From: Meiothermus luteus
GTDB lineage: Bacteria; Deinococcota; Deinococci; Deinococcales; Thermaceae
Direction of reading: 5' to 3'
Assembly: GCF_003574085.1 (NCBI RefSeq)
Contig: NZ_QWKZ01000023.1
Location: 1 to 32,761, forward strand
DNA: 32,761 nucleotides
Positions 24,830 to 32,761 of this stretch are shown here, piece by piece. Numbering within the stretch: position 1 is the first letter of the stretch; every line of letters begins with the position of its first letter. The translations under genes were made by a program, and so were the position numbers. The notes beneath the pieces were generated by a model. It was not told the DNA's origin. It searched no databases and was given only the letters and a program-made list of their open reading frames with translations.

Positions 24830-24918
24830 AGTCTACCGGCCCCAGCGCCTCTTGCCCCAAGCCCAAGCCCGATGTAGCTTTGGTATACGCCCCGCTAGGG
24901 GCCAAAAGCTCGAGCCGC

Positions 24919-25034
24919 TCTCGGTGGCTGGGCGCGTAGTCCAGCCTTAAAGTGGGGAAGTCCGGTGAGAATCCGGCACTGTTGCGCAGCGGTGTGAGGC
25001 GCCTCGGCGCCTCGAGTCCGAATACCTGCCGAGA
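24919..25034 (+). ncRNA. Cobalamin (adenosylcobalamin) riboswitch aptamer
   Basis: The conserved core of the B12 riboswitch is present in order. The closing stem P1 is TCTCGG (24919-24924) with CCGAGA (25029-25034). A hairpin GGCTGG/CCAGCC (24926-24931/24941-24946) follows. The central core reads GGGGAAGTCCGGTGAGAATC, then CCGGCACTG, then GCGCAGCGGT. A GC-rich arm GGCGCCTCGGCGCC comes next, and the B12-box element GAGTCCGAATACCTGCCGAG ends it. It lies on the plus strand about 115 nt upstream of btuF, the expected target. High cobalamin should reduce expression of the downstream uptake and synthesis genes. Confidence 0.93.
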
Positions 25035-25144
25035 AGTCCTCCGGAGCCGCAACGGAGGACTCCCGCGCACAACGGGAGAGATACGGGGTTCCCTCGGTCT
25101 CTTGGGCCTCTGCCCAGCGAAATCCAAGCTCGAGCTTTAGGGAG
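25035..25144 (+). promoter_or_regulatory. Expression platform of the cobalamin riboswitch
   Basis: Directly after P1 there is a 9-bp hairpin, AGTCCTCCG (25035-25043) with CGGAGGACT (25053-25061). A second hairpin, CTCCCG (25060-25065) with CGGGAG (25073-25078), shares two bases with the first. No U-tract follows either one, so Rho-independent termination is unlikely. TTCCCT near 25090 could pair with the AGGGAG ribosome binding site of btuF (25139-25144), which suggests translational control. The 320-bp gap 24830-25149 holds no gene besides these elements. Confidence 0.5.
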
Positions 25145-25149
25145 CCGAA

Positions 25150-26016
25150 ATGAAGCGCTTGTTTTTCCTCCTGCTGGCGTTCGTTCTAAGCCTCGCTCTA
25201 GCCCAGTTCCCCCTGACCCTCACCGATGACCAAGGCCGCAGCATCACGTTGCAAAAACCGCCTCAGCGCATCGTGACCATGCTGCCCTCGGCCACCGAGA
25301 CCATCTGCTCGCTCTCCGAGGCAGCCTGCCGCCGCATCGTGGCCACCGACCAGTTCTCCAACTGGCCTGAGCGGGTGCGCAGCCTGCCCAAGGCCGGTGG
25401 CCTCATCAACCCCAACACCGAGCTCATCATCTCCCTCAAGCCGGACCTGGTCATCGTGAACTCGGCCCGGCTGGTAGAACCGCTGGAGCGGGCTGGCCTG
25501 ACCGTCTACGTAACCCGCCCCCAGACCTACGCCGACATCTTCCGCACCGCCCGGGCCTACGGCCAGATGCTGGGCCTGCGGGCCGAGGCCGAGCGGCTGG
25601 TGGCCCGCGTTCAGGCCGAGGTCTTCGCCCTGGAAAGCCGCGCCGCCAAGGCCAAGGAGCGCCCGCTGGTCTATTACGAGATTGACCCCACCCCCTACAC
25701 CGCGGGGCCCAGCTCCTTCATCGGGGCCCTCATAGAAAAAGCCCGGGGCCGGAACATCATCCCAGCCGAGCTGGGAAACTTCCCCAAGATTAACCCCGAG
25801 CTGGTGGTGCAGCAAAAACCCCAGGTCATTGTGGTGACCCACCCAGAGGTGGGGGGCATCCGGAACCGCCCCGGCTGGGGGGCCATCCCCGCGGTGCAGC
25901 AAAACCGCATCTGCGCCTTCAGCGGCGAGGCGACCGACCTGCTCTCCCGGCCTGGCCCCCGGGTGGCCCAGGGCCTCAAGTTCCTGATCGAGTGCTTCCA
26001 CCCGGAGCTGAAGTAG
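25150..26016 (+). CDS. btuF: Cobalamin ABC transporter periplasmic binding protein (BtuF-like)
   Basis: A 288-residue helical-backbone (class III) periplasmic binding protein with a signal peptide (MKRLFFLLLAFVLSLALAQ) and no lipobox. It opens FPLTLTDDQGRSITLQKPPQRIVTMLPSATETICSL, the BtuF/FepB-family N-terminal lobe. C-terminal conserved elements are NFPKINPELVVQQKPQVIVV and FLIECFHPEL. Siderophore- and heme-binding relatives look alike, but the cobalamin riboswitch upstream and cobO/cobN downstream make a corrinoid ligand by far the most likely. ATG 25150 follows AGGGAG by 5 nt. It is the first gene of the operon and is followed 3 bp later by btuC. Confidence 0.9.
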   Translation: MKRLFFLLLAFVLSLALAQFPLTLTDDQGRSITLQKPPQRIVTMLPSATETICSLSEAACRRIVATDQFSNWPERVRSLPKAGGLINPNTELIISLKPDLVIVNSARLVEPLERAGLTVYVTRPQTYADIFRTARAYGQMLGLRAEAERLVARVQAEVFALESRAAKAKERPLVYYEIDPTPYTAGPSSFIGALIEKARGRNIIPAELGNFPKINPELVVQQKPQVIVVTHPEVGGIRNRPGWGAIPAVQQNRICAFSGEATDLLSRPGPRVAQGLKFLIECFHPELK

Positions 26017-26019
26017 GCC

Positions 26020-27081
26020 ATGCAAGGCGGCCTGAGCCCTACCCGGGGGTGGACGGGCCTATCCCTTCCAGCCCGGCGGACCCTCACCTTCACCGCACTG
26101 GCCCTCCTCCTGGGGGGGGCGCTGGTCCTGGGGGTAGGCCAGGGGGCCGTCTACGTCCCCCCGCTCGAGGTGCTCCAGGCCCTCTTGGGGCAGAGTGAAA
26201 ACCCCATCGTCACCGAGCTGCGCCTGCCCCGGGTGCTGGGGGCCATGCTGGTGGGGGCCGCCCTGGGCCTGGCCGGAGCCGCCTACCAGGGGCTCTTCCG
26301 CAACCCCCTGGCCGACCCTTACCTGATGGGGGTGGCCGCTGGGGCCTCTTTCGGCTTCACCCTCACCCTGAGTCTGAGCGGGGCCCTGGCGGGCTTCGGG
26401 GCAGGCCTGTTTTTCGCCAGCCTGCCCACCACGGCGGCGTTGGGGGCCTTTCTGGGAGCCCTTCTCGCGGTTGTCCTAACCCTCACCCTGGCCGGGGGGC
26501 CCAAAAGCGGGCAACACCTAATCCTGGCCGGGGTGGTGGTGGGCAGCGTGCTCACCGGTTTTTCTACCCTTCTTTTGCTGCTGGACACCGACCGCATCCG
26601 CGAGGTCTTCAGCTACACCTTGGGCAGCCTGGCCTTCATGGGCTGGCGGGGGGTGGGCCTGATGCTCCTGGGGCTGGGCTTCGCGCTGCCCCTGTTGTGG
26701 GGGCTGGCCCGGGCCCTGAACGCCCTGGCGCTCGGAGAGGAGACCGCTCAAAGCCTGGGCCTGCCCCTTTCGGCCCTCAGGCTGGTGCTGATTGGCCTTT
26801 CCACCCTGCTCACCGCGCTCTCGGTGGTGCACGCCGGCATCATCGGGTTTGTGGGCTTTGTGGCCCCTCACGCCCTCCGCCAGCTCGTGGGGGGCGACTA
26901 CCGCTACTTGCTCCCGGCCTCGGCCCTGGGGGGGGCGCTTCTGCTGGCCTTATCGGACTGGGCGGCTCGAGTGGTGGCCCGGCCCGCGGAACTCCCCGTG
27001 GGGGTCATCACCACCTTGCTGGGCGGCCCCTTCTTCCTATACCTGTTGTGGCGGGCCCGAAAGGGCCTCCACTGGGGGTGA
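26020..27081 (+). CDS. btuC: Cobalamin ABC transporter permease (BtuC/FecCD family)
   Basis: A 353-residue inner-membrane permease with about ten helices. The FecCD-family signatures are LRLPRVLGAMLVGAALGLAGAAYQGLFRNPLADPYLMGVAAGASFG (about 67-113) and GFVGFVAPHALRQLVGGDYRYLLPASALGGALLL near 270-305. It forms a homodimeric channel that needs a BtuD-type ATPase. No such ATPase gene is in the window: the next gene, 3 bp downstream, is cobO. The start ATG 26020 lies 3 bp after the btuF stop codon, which gives a roughly 20-residue polar N-terminal extension before the first helix; a later start inside that extension is possible. Confidence 0.92.
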   Translation: MQGGLSPTRGWTGLSLPARRTLTFTALALLLGGALVLGVGQGAVYVPPLEVLQALLGQSENPIVTELRLPRVLGAMLVGAALGLAGAAYQGLFRNPLADPYLMGVAAGASFGFTLTLSLSGALAGFGAGLFFASLPTTAALGAFLGALLAVVLTLTLAGGPKSGQHLILAGVVVGSVLTGFSTLLLLLDTDRIREVFSYTLGSLAFMGWRGVGLMLLGLGFALPLLWGLARALNALALGEETAQSLGLPLSALRLVLIGLSTLLTALSVVHAGIIGFVGFVAPHALRQLVGGDYRYLLPASALGGALLLALSDWAARVVARPAELPVGVITTLLGGPFFLYLLWRARKGLHWG

Positions 27082-27084
27082 GCG

Positions 27085-27648
27085 ATGGAACAGCCCAAAC
27101 GGGAGAAACCCTACCAAAAACCCACCGGGGAACGGCGGGGGCTGGTCTTGGTCTATACCGGGGAGGGCAAGGGTAAGACCACCGCGGCCCTGGGCCTGGT
27201 CCTACGGGCGGTGGGGCGGGGCTACCGGGCGCGCATCTTTCAGTTCATGAAACACGAGCGGGCTGCTTTCGGCGAACACCGGGCCCTAGAACGGCTGGGG
27301 GTGGAGATTGAGGGGCTGGGCGACGGGTTTAGCTGGAAGTCCAAAGACCTGGACCACTCGGCCGCCCTGGCCTACAAAGGCTGGCAGAAGGCCCGGGAGA
27401 TTCTCCTCTCTGGAACGTACTTTCTGGTGGTTTGGGATGAGATCAGCTACCCCATCCGCTACGGATGGATTCCCCTAGAGGAGGTACTCCAGGCCTTGGA
27501 GCAAAAACCAAAAGGGGTCCACCTGGTGCTCACCGGCCGGGGCATGCCGGAAGAAATCATTGAGCGGGCCGACACGGCCAGCGAGGTACGCAAGGTCAAG
27601 CACGCCTTTGACGCTGGGGTGCCTGCCCAGCGGGGCATTGAGCACTGA
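27085..27648 (+). CDS. cobO: Cob(I)yrinic acid a,c-diamide adenosyltransferase (CobO/BtuR)
   Basis: A 187-residue P-loop enzyme that transfers the adenosyl group of ATP to cobalt(I) corrinoids, giving the coenzyme form. The nucleotide loop is GEGKGKT at 26-32. The family motifs [56 protein letters not shown] and the C-terminal [16 protein letters not shown] are all present. Length is standard for the CobA/CobO type; PduO- and EutT-type enzymes are unrelated. It lies 3 bp after btuC and 5 bp before cobN, so the genes are co-transcribed under the riboswitch. Confidence 0.96.
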
Positions 27649-27653
27649 AGCCC

Positions 27654-30600
27654 ATGAACCTCTACCGCCAGAGAGTCCAAAGGCCTGATGGCCGCTTGGT
27701 GCACATCGTGCAAAAGCGGGGCCACCTCAGCTACTGCTACACCGGCTGCTGCTGCGGCCACACCGAAAGGGGCTACGCCCCGGTACCCGCCGAGGTCTAC
27801 AAGGAGGAGTGGCTGCGGCGAAGGCTGAGGAACCTGGTCCACCTGACCAAAGGGGGGTGCCTAGGCCCTTGTGTGCTGGCCAATGTGGCCTGCTTGGTCT
27901 TTGACGGCCGCTCGGTCTGGTTCCACTCGGTGAACACCCCCTGGCAGGTGCGGCTCATCTTTGACCACATAGAGGCCATGCTGGCCGCCGACCGCTTCCT
28001 GCCGCCCCCGCCCGAGCTAGCCGAGTACGTCTTCAACTTCTACGACTGGGAGGCCCGCAGCGGCGTGGCCCTGCCCTCCCCTCGCCTCCCCGAAGCCCCC
28101 CAGGGCCTATCGGGCATCGCCCTGCTAAGCCACGCCGACACCGACCTGCTGGCCCTGGAAGCGGCCAAGGGCCTGCTGCCCCCTGGCTTCCCCCCGGTGG
28201 TGGGCCTGAGCCTCAACCGGCTCAGAAGCCCAGAGCAGATGGCTCTATGGCTCCAAGGCCCCCTGGGCCGGGCCCAGGTAGTGGTCCTACGGCTGCACAG
28301 CTCACCCGAGCGGGTGCCCGGCCTGGAGACCCTGCGGGCCTACGCCCGGAAGCATGGGCAGCGGCTTCTGTTCGTAAGCGGCCTGGGGGAGCTTTCCCCG
28401 GAGCTGGCCCGGTGTTCCGACGGGGGCTCGCTGGTGCTGAGGGAGGCCACTGCTTACCTGACGGCAGGCGGGGTGGACAACCTGGTGGAACTCTGCAAGT
28501 ACCTGTCGGACACCCTGCTGGAAAGCCGCTACGGCCATACCCCCCCAATCCCCCAGCCCGAGCACGGCCTCTACCACCCCGGCCTGCCCCAGGGAGCCAC
28601 GCTGCAGGACTGGGAGCGAATCCGCGATCCCAGCCGGCCCACCGCCGGACTGCTCTTCTACCGGGCCCACTTCCTCTCGGGGAACCTAGCCTTCGTGGAC
28701 GGCCTGGTAGAGGCCCTGGAGGCCCGGGGAATGAACGCCCTGCCGGTCTACACCTCCTCCCTCAAGGCGATGGAGGAGGGCTTTCCGGTGGCGCTGGGCT
28801 TTTTGGAGGGACGCGTGGATGTGCTCATCTCCACCCTGGCCTTTGCCCTGGGGGAGGTCCACGCCGGCGCCATCACCCCGGCGGGGCAAGGGGTGGGGGC
28901 CTTCGCCCGGCTTGGGGTGCCGGTGCTGCAGGCCCTAACCCCGGGAATGCCCAAAGGGGCCTGGGAGGTAAGCCAGAGGGGGCTCAACCCCCTCGAGACC
29001 TCCATGCAGGTAGCCCTGCCGGAGTTTGACGGCCGGCTGATAGGGGTGCCCATCAGCTTCAAGGAGCAGGGCCAACAGACCCTTTACGTTCCCGAGCCCG
29101 ACCGGATGGAGCGCATCGCCGGCTTAGCCGCACGCCTCGCCGCCCTGCGGCGAAAACCCAACCCCCAAAAGCGCATCGCCTTTGTGCTCACCAACTCCGG
29201 GGCCAAGGCCCAAATGGTGGGCAACGCGGTGGGCCTAGACGCCCCGGCCTCGCTGCTGCGCATCCTGCGGGCCATGCGGGCTCGAGGCTACACCCTCCCC
29301 GAACTCCCGGAAAGCCCCAAGGCCTTGATGGAGGCCCTGCTGAGCCGGGGCAGCTACGACCCCCAGCATCCCTTAGACCCCAAGCAGGCCTTCCGGATTC
29401 CCCGCCCGACCTACCTGCGCTGGTTCAGGGAGTTTCCCGAGGCCCTGCGCTTCCGCATGGAGGACTTCTGGGGCACCCCCCGCGAGCGGGGCTACACCCT
29501 GCGTCAGGGCAAGCCCAAGACCGACAAGAAAACCCTCAAAGGGCTGAAAACCTTGGGCGCTTTAAGCCTGAACGAGGAGCCGTACAGCGACGAGGAGAGC
29601 TACTGGGTGGCTGGCCTCGAGCTGGGCAACGTCCTCATCGCCCTCCAACCCCCGCGGGGCTACGGCCTTGACCCCGACGCCATCTACCACACCCCCGACC
29701 TCCCCCCAACCCACCACTACGCGGCCTTCTACCGATGGCTGGAGGAGGGCTGGGGCGCCGATGCCATCGTACACCTGGGCAAGCACGGCACCTTAGAGTG
29801 GCTCCCCGGAAAAGGGGTGGGCCTCTCAGCGGCCTGCGCCCCCGATGCCCTCCTGGGCAGCCTGCCCCTCTTCTACCCCTTCATCCTCAACGACCCGGGC
29901 GAGGGTACCCAGGCCAAGCGGCGGGCCCACGCCGCGGTGGTGGACCACCTACCCCCGCCCCTGACCCTGGCCGAAACCTACGGGCCGCTGGCCCGCCTGA
30001 GCGAACTGGTGAACGAGTACTACGTCCTGGAGAAACTCGACCCCAGCAAGCTGCCCCTTTTGCAGCAGGAAATCTGGCAGATACTGGAGGAAACCCAGCT
30101 CAAAGCCGACCTCGAGCTAAAAACCCTGCTCAGTGCCGACCACGGCGACCACAAGCACGAGTGGGACGATACCCTAACCCCAGAGGGCATCCCCTCCACC
30201 CTGGCCGAGATGGAGGGGCCCCAGGTGGCCCACCTACTGGAGGATATTGAGGGCTACCTCTGCGAGCTGGGGCTGGCCCAGATACGCGACGGGTTGCACA
30301 CCCTGGGCGAACTTCCCCCCTTCCCCGAGACCCTCAGGGCCCTCACCCGGCTGCCCAACGGGCCTGTGCCGGGCTGGCTTTCCACCCTGGCCCAGGCCTA
30401 CGGCTTCCACCCAGACTCCCTGCTCGAGCGGATGGGGGCCCGCCTAGACCCTCCCCATCCGCTTGGCCAAAGCCACGGCCAGGTGCTGGAGAACCTCGAG
30501 CGGCTGGCCCTCAGGCTTTACGAAGAGCTGGAGCAGCAAGGTTTCGCCTCCACCGCCATCCCCTCCGTGCTGGGACGGGTGCTGCCCCCAGGGTACGATG

Positions 30601-31979
30601 AGGGGGCCCTGGCCAAGCTGGAGGAGACCCTGGGCTTCGCCTGCACCCACCTGGTGCCAGCCCTGGAGCGCACCGACGACGAGATCGAGCACCTTTTGCT
30701 GGGGCTGGAGGGGGGCTACATCCCCGCCGGCCCCGCCGGGGCCCCCAGCCGCGGCCAGGCCCACGTCCTCCCCAGCGGGCGCAACTTCTACGCGGTAGAC
30801 CCCCGGGCCCTGCCCTCCCAGGCTGCCTGGCGGGTGGGCCAGCGGCTGGCCCAGGAGACCCTGGAGCGCTACCTCCGGGAAACCGGGCGCTACCCGGAGA
30901 TGGTGGCCCTCTCGGCCTGGGGCACGGCCCAGATGCGCACCCAGGGGGACGAGGTGGCCGAGGTACTGGCCTTCCTGGGGGTGCGCCCCCGCTGGCACCC
31001 CCTGAGCCGGCGCATAGAGGGGCTCGAGGTCATCCCCCTGTCCGAGCTGGACCGCCCCCGCATTGATGTGACCCTGCGCATCTCCGGCTTTTTTCGCGAC
31101 GCTTTTCCCCACCTGATAGAGCTCCTAGACGAGGCTTTTGAAATGGTCATGCACCTGCCGGAGGACCCTGAGCAAAACTACCCCCGCAAGCACTACCTGG
31201 AGGCGCTGGGCGCTTCTTGTACAAGCGATGGGTGCGGTCAGGAGGAGGTCCACTGGCGCATCTTTGGCTCCAAGCCGGGAAGCTACGGCGCAGGGATGCT
31301 GCCCCTGCTGGAGGCCGGCAACTGGGAGAGCCCGCACGACCTGGCCCAGGTCTACCTGGCCTGGGGAGGGTACGCCTACGGACGGGGCGTGGAGGGGGTT
31401 GAGGCCAAAGAAACCTTCGCCCAGCGGTTGCGGCAGGTGGAGCTGGCCCTGCACAACCAGGACAACCGCGAACACGACATCCTGGACTCCGACGACTACT
31501 TCCAGTACCACGGGGGGCTCATCGCCGCGGTGCGGGCCCTAAAGGGGGAGGCCCCCAAGGCCTACTTCGGCGACACTGCCAACCCCGAGAAGCCCCGGAT
31601 GCGCGACCTACGGGAGGAAATCCTGCGGGTCTACCGCAGCCGGGTGGTGAACCCCAAGTGGCTTTCAGCCATCCAGCGCCACGGCTACAAAGGCGGCCTG
31701 GAGATGGCCGCCACCGTGGACTACCTGTTCGGCTACAGCGCCACCGCAGGGGTCGTGCCCGACTTCATCTTTGAGGGGGTGGCCCAGACCTACGCGCTGG
31801 ACCCCGCCATCCAGGCCTTTCTTAAGGAGGCCAACCCCTGGGCCCTGCGGGCGATTTCTGAGCGGCTCTTGGAGGCGGCTGAGCGGGGCCTATGGCAGGC
31901 CCGCGAGGAAACCCTGGAGGCCCTGCGGGAGGCCATGCTGGCCGGCGAAGCAGCCCTGGAGGCTTCAAGCGAGGTATGA
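27654..31979 (+). CDS. cobN: Cobaltochelatase subunit CobN with N-terminal thioredoxin-like [2Fe-2S] domain
   Basis: A 1441-residue large subunit of the aerobic-type cobaltochelatase, which inserts Co2+ into hydrogenobyrinic acid a,c-diamide in an ATP-dependent complex. The chelatase part begins about residue 150 ([16 protein letters not shown]) and runs nearly to the end. Typical pieces are [27 protein letters not shown]-like regions and [14 protein letters not shown]. The first 120 residues are an added domain: C28, C32-C33-C34 ([13 protein letters not shown]), C69 and C73 (GGCLGPC) and C80, the cysteine layout of thioredoxin-like [2Fe-2S] ferredoxins such as CbiW. A His-rich stretch, [12 protein letters not shown], lies near residue 830. 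A CTSDGCG cysteine pair lies near residue 1190, just before the RIFGSKPG motif. ATG 27654 follows cobO by 5 bp. The stop codon overlaps the next start codon as ATGA. Confidence 0.95.
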
Positions 31980-32761
31980 ACTACCCGTTCGCTGCGCTGG
32001 TAGGACAGGAAACCATGCGGCTGGCCCTGCTGTTGGCGGCCACCGATCCTGGGCTCTCGGTACTCCTGCAGGGAGAGAAGGGCAGCGCCAAGACCACCGC
32101 TGCCAGGGCCCTGGCCGAGCTACTCCCCGAGGGAGCCCCCTTTGTGAACCTGCCCATCGGCACGGGGGAGGAGCGGCTTCTGGGCGGGCTTGACCTGGAG
32201 AAAGCCCTGGCCGGGCAGCCAGCCCTAAAGCCCGGCCTGCTCAGCCAGGCCCACGGGGGGGTGCTCTACATTGATGAGGTCAACCTGCTGGCCCCCCACC
32301 TGACCGACGCCCTGCTGGACGTGGTGGCGAGCGGGGTGGGGCGACTGGAGCGGGAGGGCTTCAGCCTGGAGTACCCGGCCCGCTTCGTGCTGTTGGCCAG
32401 CATGAACCCCGAGGAGGGCCGGCTGCGCCCCCAGCTCTACGACCGCTTCGCCCTAAAGGTATCGGTTCAGAGCCTCAAAGACCCTACGGAGCGGGCCGAA
32501 GCCCTAAGGCGTCGCCTGGCCTTTGAGGCCGACCCCGCGGGATTCCGCAGGGCCTGGGACGAGGCCCAAGCGGGGCTCCGGGCCCAGCTCACCAAAGCCC
32601 GCGCGCGGCTGGGAGCACTAACGCTACCCCAAGAACTCCTCCAAGGGATCAGCGAGCGGGTGGCCGCCCTGGGGGTGGGGAGCCTACGGGCCGACCTGGC
32701 ACTGGCCAAGGCCGCGCGGGCCCTGGCCAGTGCCAGGTCGGCCCGTAGGCTCCCCACCCCC
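31976..32761 (+). CDS. Mg/Co-chelatase AAA+ ATPase subunit (ChlI/BchI-like), cut by window end
   Basis: The frame is open from ATG 31976 to the window end (262 codons visible, no stop). Walker A is GEKGSAKT at 33-40, Walker B VLYIDE at 96-101 and sensor 1 N144 in ASMNPEEG. The arginine finger region is [10 protein letters not shown] (about 151-160). This is the MoxR-like ATPase of Mg-chelatase I/CobS type that powers metal insertion by CobN. The start overlaps the cobN stop codon (ATGA), so the proteins are made together. In many bacteria this protein continues into a VWA (ChlD-like) domain, but that part is missing here. Residues after about 246 are encoded by an inverted copy of the preceding DNA (32725-32761) and are probably not genuine. 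Confidence 0.9.
32671..32761. repeat. Terminal foldback: 37-bp perfect inverted repeat at the window end
   Basis: Positions 32671-32707 are exactly reverse-complemented at 32725-32761. Seventeen bases lie between, and some of these pair further. The repeat interrupts the conserved coding sequence of the chelatase ATPase gene. A natural gene would not be expected to contain such a palindrome, so a contig-end or chimeric-read artefact is the simplest explanation. Confidence 0.9.

Follow-up and report, generated by a model that had tools for sequence, protein, structure and literature searches.

Transfer of Co(II) to the cobaltochelatase CobNST runs against an unfavourable gradient that is overcome by CobW (PMC10206600), a protein whose gene usually neighbours cobN (PMC7689651). 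For another cobalt protein, nitrile hydratase (NHase), P14K activators mediate metal (cobalt) trafficking and incorporation (PMC4709657, PMC3511329). Some chelatases carry iron-sulphur centres, and a review of cobalt and B12 states that the reason is unclear (PMC7689651). Here we analyse a CobN of Meiothermus luteus that begins with a cysteine-rich, ferredoxin-like domain, encoded in a 32,761-nucleotide stretch of contig NZ_QWKZ01000023.1 (hereafter the window, at its full length). A sequence-only reading of this DNA had proposed that the N-terminal extension is a thioredoxin-like [2Fe-2S] domain working directly with the chelatase. We find the same domain fused to a second cobalt-inserting protein and propose that the domain probably represents a cobalt-handling module that has gone unnoticed.

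The N-terminal domain of CobN

A single stop-free frame (27654-31979, plus strand) encodes a CobN of 1441 residues; since unfused CobN chains span ~1230-1310 residues, ~130 residues are extra. The chelatase itself is well recognized: a Pfam scan places PF02514 on residues 267-1421 (1275 bits), the cutoff of the TIGR02257 equivalog model is exceeded (1140 bits; cutoff 822), and the AAA+ partner gene expected of a CobN, encoding a ChlI-type PF01078 ATPase, directly follows. Residues 1-132 form a separate domain ending at about 28049, slightly beyond the limit drawn in the sequence-only reading, which had correctly located the extension and its cysteines C28, C32-C34, C69, C73 and C80. Six of these (codons at 27735 for C28, 27747-27755 for C32-C34, 27858 for C69 and 27870 for C73) show no variation across all 53 aligned relatives, as they showed none in an earlier alignment of 32, but C80 is substituted in most relatives and drops out of the conserved set. 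The resulting signature is C-x2/3-CCCG-x33-CxGPC, with 34 residues from the last cysteine of the triplet to the next cysteine.

A family search of the extension, as the sequence-only reading had envisaged, was negative in Pfam, where no model matched residues 1-125 of CobN or its relatives, and weakly positive in NCBIfam. There, the Azotobacter-type [2Fe-2S] ferredoxin model NF041613 gave an E value of 4e-6 at 27 bits, far under its cutoff of 195, and was matched at E 0.01 or better by 22 of 23 domain relatives. The domain belongs to an unnamed CCC-motif family that no Pfam model covers and for which no NCBIfam model reaches its cutoff, although other automatic domain annotation may already show it. 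A profile built from 23 diverse relatives and compared with all solved structures found HydB of electron-bifurcating hydrogenases best (7t2r_B, 7.7e-6; 7q4v_B, 4.7e-5) and also Azotobacter vinelandii Shethna protein I (FeSI; 5abr, 7.3e-5), all of them thioredoxin-like [2Fe-2S] domains. An AlphaFold2 model of the domain (pLDDT 86.7; 27-sequence alignment, plasmid loci excluded) matched the fold of FeSI 5abr with Z 11.7 over 94 residues at 2.1 A and that of the Aquifex ferredoxin with Z 11.2, followed by NuoE/NDUFV2 proteins. The profile matches and the predicted fold support the proposed thioredoxin-like [2Fe-2S]-type ferredoxin class, the cluster being a prediction; we infer that the domain binds a cluster or metal.

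The cluster of FeSI is held by Cys11, Cys24, Cys56 and Cys60 (PMC8561814). C69 and C73 align with Cys56 and Cys60, and C28 with Cys11. For the second ligand of the first loop, spacing in the window favours C33, whereas C34 is favoured when the domain is aligned with HydB and with a diverged paralogue from Meiothermus, which has only C-x4-C. The four-cysteine, two-loop pattern of the superfamily is thus present (C28, C33/C34, C69 and C73, aligned to HydB and FeSI) and, whether C33 or C34 is the ligand, the alignments would leave two conserved cysteines of the CCC triplet over.

The nearest proteins in both sequence and fold are [2Fe-2S] electron carriers, which favours the main rival to a cobalt-handling role: a redox module whose [2Fe-2S] cluster moves electrons to or from a cobalt centre, for example by bringing the cobalt of CobN-bound cob(II)yrinic acid a,c-diamide to Co(I) ahead of adenosylation by CobO, or by reducing imported Co(III) corrinoids. 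We consider this explanation a serious one, but less likely than not; the two extra invariant cysteines would be superfluous for electron transfer, and further evidence on either side comes from the genes with which the domain is associated.

Fusions, spread and gene neighbourhoods

In two Acidobacteriota genomes the domain makes up the C-terminal end of a protein resembling nitrile hydratase activators (L089, L181). This P14K-type activator is itself NHase-beta-like (PF21006) and unrelated to CobN. In both loci the fusion gene follows the NHase alpha and beta subunit genes, and the alpha subunit bears the motif VCTLCSC, which we take to mark a cobalt-type nitrile hydratase. Attachment of one domain to two unrelated cobalt-inserting proteins points to cobalt handling, and we regard this double fusion as the strongest functional evidence here. 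Within the open-licence literature we found no paper describing either a ferredoxin-CobN or a ferredoxin-NHase activator fusion. A redox module does not easily explain the activator fusion, as the cobalt of the activator's client ends up as Co(III) rather than Co(I). The fusion also bears on the idea of a regulatory or structural module, in which the chelatase would be gated, without any contact with cobalt, by a cluster that senses oxygen or iron or by a domain that serves for docking. Several chelatases, CbiX-L among them, have Fe-S centres whose purpose is unclear, which lends that idea some support (PMC7689651), but attachment to an unrelated cobalt protein, together with the standalone copies in CobN-less genomes described below, demands a function beyond gating CobN, and we consider it improbable.

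How many CobN proteins carry the extension had been left to a survey by the sequence-only reading. CobN occurs in 7 of 111 Deinococcota genomes and is fused in 6 of those 7. Two conserved peptides, searched against 84,980 species genomes, yielded 87 relatives, from Acidobacteriota, Bacteroidota and Meiothermus; among the 80 that were fetched (a few cut by contig ends; L020 and L021 with frame breaks), the domain is followed by CobN in 75. The in-frame fusion recurs in four further Meiothermus, the related genome G001, Deinococcus plasmids, Acidobacteriota and Bacteroidota, and is therefore no assembly artefact. Among 159 CobN-bearing plasmid records, 7 carry the domain, their hosts all being Deinococcus, Granulicella or Spirosoma, and a sample of 345 Bacteroidota genomes contained one fused CobN and four weak Shethna-type matches without cobalt context. 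In a quick tree the fused CobN bodies make up one side of a fully supported branch (a Tsukamurella row translated in the wrong frame was disregarded), a topology that fits a single fusion event. In all 73 full loci, conservation is higher in the domain than in the chelatase body (mean identity to the window 70% versus 56%). A Hymenobacter volaticus plasmid without CobN holds a broken domain remnant upstream of cobB (L011:7700-8300).

No CobN follows the domain in the other 5 of the 80 fetched loci, and no PF02514 protein was found in the five genomes concerned (G111-G115, draft assemblies). Because their domains nest inside the fused clade, at three places in the tree (L089 is placed with weak support), the best reading is that they were retained after loss of the chelatase. 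A more distant, standalone type also exists: among 347 Acidobacteriota genomes, 27 had a match, about a dozen of them close and mostly CobN-fused and the others distant and standalone. A CobN-family protein was not found in 9 of the 15 genomes with the distant type. Standalone queries match fused domains at 1e-35 and 1e-18, so homology is secure; on plasmids the same queries retrieved fused CobN only and no standalone copies.

The neighbours of standalone copies, identified by Pfam or tblastn, are frequently cobalt genes. Copies adjoin CbiM, CbiQ and a CbiO-type ABC ATPase (L091), CbtA and CbtB (L092), HupE_UreJ together with a cobalt-type nitrile hydratase operon (L126, L129; alpha motif again VCTLCSC), HupE_UreJ (L125), NHase beta (L128), or NicO and a CobW GTPase (L135). 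CobW GTPases also stand beside the domain in L132-L134, L138 and L182-L185. Strong CobW matches number ~1-5 per genome of 3-7.5 Mb, and one lies within ~2.5 kb of the domain in each of G534, G607, G686, G710 and G807, a proximity that by our simple arithmetic is far above chance. The neighbourhoods of L136 and L137 showed no clear association. Copies accompanying the cobalt-ion importers CbtAB, CbiMQO and HupE are not easily explained by a redox module. Other standalone copies sit within corrinoid uptake operons, and these favour it: in L127 the order is CbiB, TonB receptor, domain, BtuF, BtuC, BtuD, CobQ, and in L131 it is TonB receptor, BtuD, BtuF, BtuC, CobO, domain, CbiB, aminotransferase. 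L130 likewise belongs with these copies, which keep company with btuFCD, cobO, cbiB or cobQ. L131 shares the window's order btuF-btuC-cobO-domain, with the domain as a separate gene and an unextended CobN elsewhere in the genome. Also in favour of a redox role, cobO adjoins the domain gene in both the window and L131; CobO needs Co(I). Once CobN has acted, the pathway continues with the reduction of Co(II) to Co(I) (PMC8123684). Taken together, the fusions and neighbourhoods bear out the Rosetta-stone link to cobalt that the sequence-only reading had drawn. Of the functions it had offered, the neighbourhoods favour cobalt delivery, with redox control remaining as a rival.

Several associations recur around these copies. 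In L132-L135, L138 and L182-L185 (Acidobacteriota), a CobW GTPase, a WD40-like protein and the standalone domain form a recurrent cluster, with an ArsP-like permease in some. A histidine phosphatase-superfamily gene recurs near the domain and cobalt importers in L088, L090, L092 and L008 (Acidobacteriota); in L088 and L090 it is beside the domain and resembles the one next to the Granulicella fused cobN, and L090 also has an ABC-3 metal permease. Diverged relatives of the domain in two Meiothermus genomes (G034, G035) and in G001 (Deinococcota) lie directly upstream of a second BtuF-BtuC-type transporter and, in G034 and G035, within the same operon as the fused CobN. The diverged C-x4-C relative was not found in the window genome.

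Probable salvage in Meiothermus and a proposed hand-off of cobalt

The window operon reads riboswitch-btuF-btuC-cobO-cobN-chlID (Table 1), with the cobO stop 5 nt upstream of cobN and the chlID ATG overlapping the cobN stop codon. In five Meiothermus genomes with fused CobN (94-100% complete), CbiC/CobH was not found and CobM/CbiF gave no match above cutoff. The two markers agree exactly across 26 genomes, the same 7 having both, and more than half of the tested fused-CobN hosts lack markers of corrin-ring synthesis. The cobalamin riboswitch thus precedes btuF in a genome without such markers. De novo synthesis by a known route is unlikely for the Meiothermus fused CobN, and because its host genomes lack these markers the protein probably serves salvage, metallating scavenged corrin rings. 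A salvage role has been suggested for an orphan late cobaltochelatase in haloarchaea (PMC8305020).

The same observations would suit a reductive de-chelatase: the CobN homologue HmuS removes iron from heme, and the fused protein would in the same way free imported corrinoids of their cobalt. Meiothermus and more than half of the tested fused hosts lack the corrin-ring markers, the operon imports corrinoids, and HmuS, an NADH-dependent CobN relative, is among the structural matches of the window protein (PMC12583661). We consider this very improbable. The protein scores well over the cutoff of the TIGR02257 CobN equivalog, and it matches CobN (7c6o, 1e-287) far better than HmuS (3e-94). A ChlID-type partner gene lies directly 3' of fused cobN in 60 loci, and HmuS needs no ATP (PMC12583661).

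Our favoured explanation, which we judge about evenly poised between right and wrong, is that the domain represents a family of thioredoxin-like [2Fe-2S]-type ferredoxins, unnamed so far and associated with cobalt, and helps hand Co(II) to an insertion site. The domain would take Co(II), or be required for its hand-over, and Co(II) would pass from it to the insertion site of the attached protein, as CobW passes it to ordinary CobN. Four cysteines (C28, C33 or C34, C69 and C73) would hold a cluster or metal, and the CCC cysteines left over would act as an exchange site. In Meiothermus, the fused CobN and the ChlID-type ATPase of the riboswitch-preceded operon would metallate scavenged corrin rings, since the genome apparently makes none. 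We favour a role in Co(II) hand-off because CobW is normally encoded beside cobN, as it is in the unfused plasmid records, yet the flanks of fused loci yielded no CobW-like gene, except in Deinococcus deserti (L010). More tentatively, the domain could be a general cobalt metallochaperone, or a cobalt-loading redox factor, that serves several clients including CobN and cobalt nitrile hydratase and, in these bacteria, replaces CobW at the chelatase.

Several points weigh against Co(II) hand-off. Thioredoxin-like ferredoxins of known structure bind [2Fe-2S] clusters and carry electrons, so a purely redox role would be the default. The D. deserti locus has a CobW-like GTPase as well as the fused domain, and Meiothermus genomes have CobW/HypB/UreG-type genes elsewhere; CobW is therefore not simply replaced. 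Moreover, the CCC triplet is missing from the diverged relative that is encoded next to BtuFC-type transporters (L178-L180).

If Co(II) hand-off is correct, the domain may prove to be a cobalt delivery factor in addition to CobW. One ferredoxin-like domain marks two unrelated cobalt-insertion machines as well as cobalt importers, and appears to outlast a lost chelatase. The role of chelatase Fe-S centres becomes testable: the domain has 130 residues and six cysteines that never vary, and established assays exist for both clients. The fusion also draws attention to organisms that salvage B12 and retain a cobaltochelatase although they make no corrin rings.

Table 1. Positions of the features discussed, in the window unless a locus is named
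Feature	Positions	Strand	Remarks
Cobalamin riboswitch RF00174, upstream of btuF	24905..25047	+	56.5 bits, E 1.2e-11
BtuF-like substrate-binding protein	25150..26016	+	
BtuC-like ABC permease	26020..27081	+	
CobO/BtuR ATP:corrinoid adenosyltransferase	27085..27648	+	TIGR00708 191 bits, cutoff 168
CobN N-terminal thioredoxin-like ferredoxin domain (predicted)	27654..28049	+	residues 1-132
CobN cobaltochelatase body	28041..31979	+	PF02514, TIGR02257; in frame with N-terminal domain
ChlI/ChlID-type AAA+ chelatase partner	31976..32761	+	PF01078 2e-16; ends at contig edge
Activator-domain fusion	L089:2832-3788	+	PF21006; domain 68% identical to that of the window
Activator-domain fusion	L181:7249-8316	+	tblastn match to activator
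Diverged domain relative	L178:8675-9055	-	C-x4-C, without CCC triplet
Diverged domain relative	L179:8153-8533	-	C-x4-C, without CCC triplet
Diverged domain relative	L180:7103-7507	+	C-x4-C, without CCC triplet

Elsewhere in the window, positions 1095-2276 on the minus strand encode a protein resembling the alpha subunit of Rieske ring-hydroxylating oxygenases (PF00848, PF00355).

Comparison with known systems

The sequence-only reading had also mentioned DUF1636-type proteins (PF07845), as metal-binding proteins encoded in cobalamin gene clusters. Kinship of the domain with DUF1636 found no support: there was no Pfam match, and hhalign gave a probability of 0.6% against one member, from Sphingobium. 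In that organism the DUF1636 protein (AP027328.1:751725-752081; L187, near L142) is encoded close to hoxN and cobW, at a distance of ~4 kb upstream from cobN. DUF1636 is thus linked to cobalt too, yet by these comparisons is not detectably related to the CobN-fused domain.

The closest likenesses are to ferredoxins. With FeSI and the Aquifex aeolicus ferredoxin the domain shares its predicted fold, a C-x-G-P-C second loop and a first-loop cysteine at the end of the first strand. Unlike them, it has its second first-loop cysteine 5-6 residues after the first, not 13, carries the additional CCC triplet, is fused to or encoded beside cobalt proteins, and stays far from the NF041613 cutoff. NuoE/HydC and the HydB N-terminal domains share the fold (Z 8-11), the short cysteine spacing of the first loop and a C-x3-C second loop; the domain differs in standing outside any flavin/NADH complex and in its CCC triplet, at ~20% identity.

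Comparisons of function lead elsewhere. CobW, the COG0523 G3E GTPase that acts as cobalt chaperone for CobNST, is alike in proposed role and is a neighbour both of CobN where the operon has no fusion and of standalone domain copies, but is unrelated in fold and sequence, and the domain is not a GTPase. CbiX-L, with its C-terminal 4Fe-4S and His-rich extension, is likewise a cobaltochelatase with an appended Fe-S or metal-binding extension (PMC7689651); it differs in being a class II chelatase of the early pathway with another type of cluster. We file the domain as a variant of the thioredoxin-like ferredoxins with an unusual association with cobalt.
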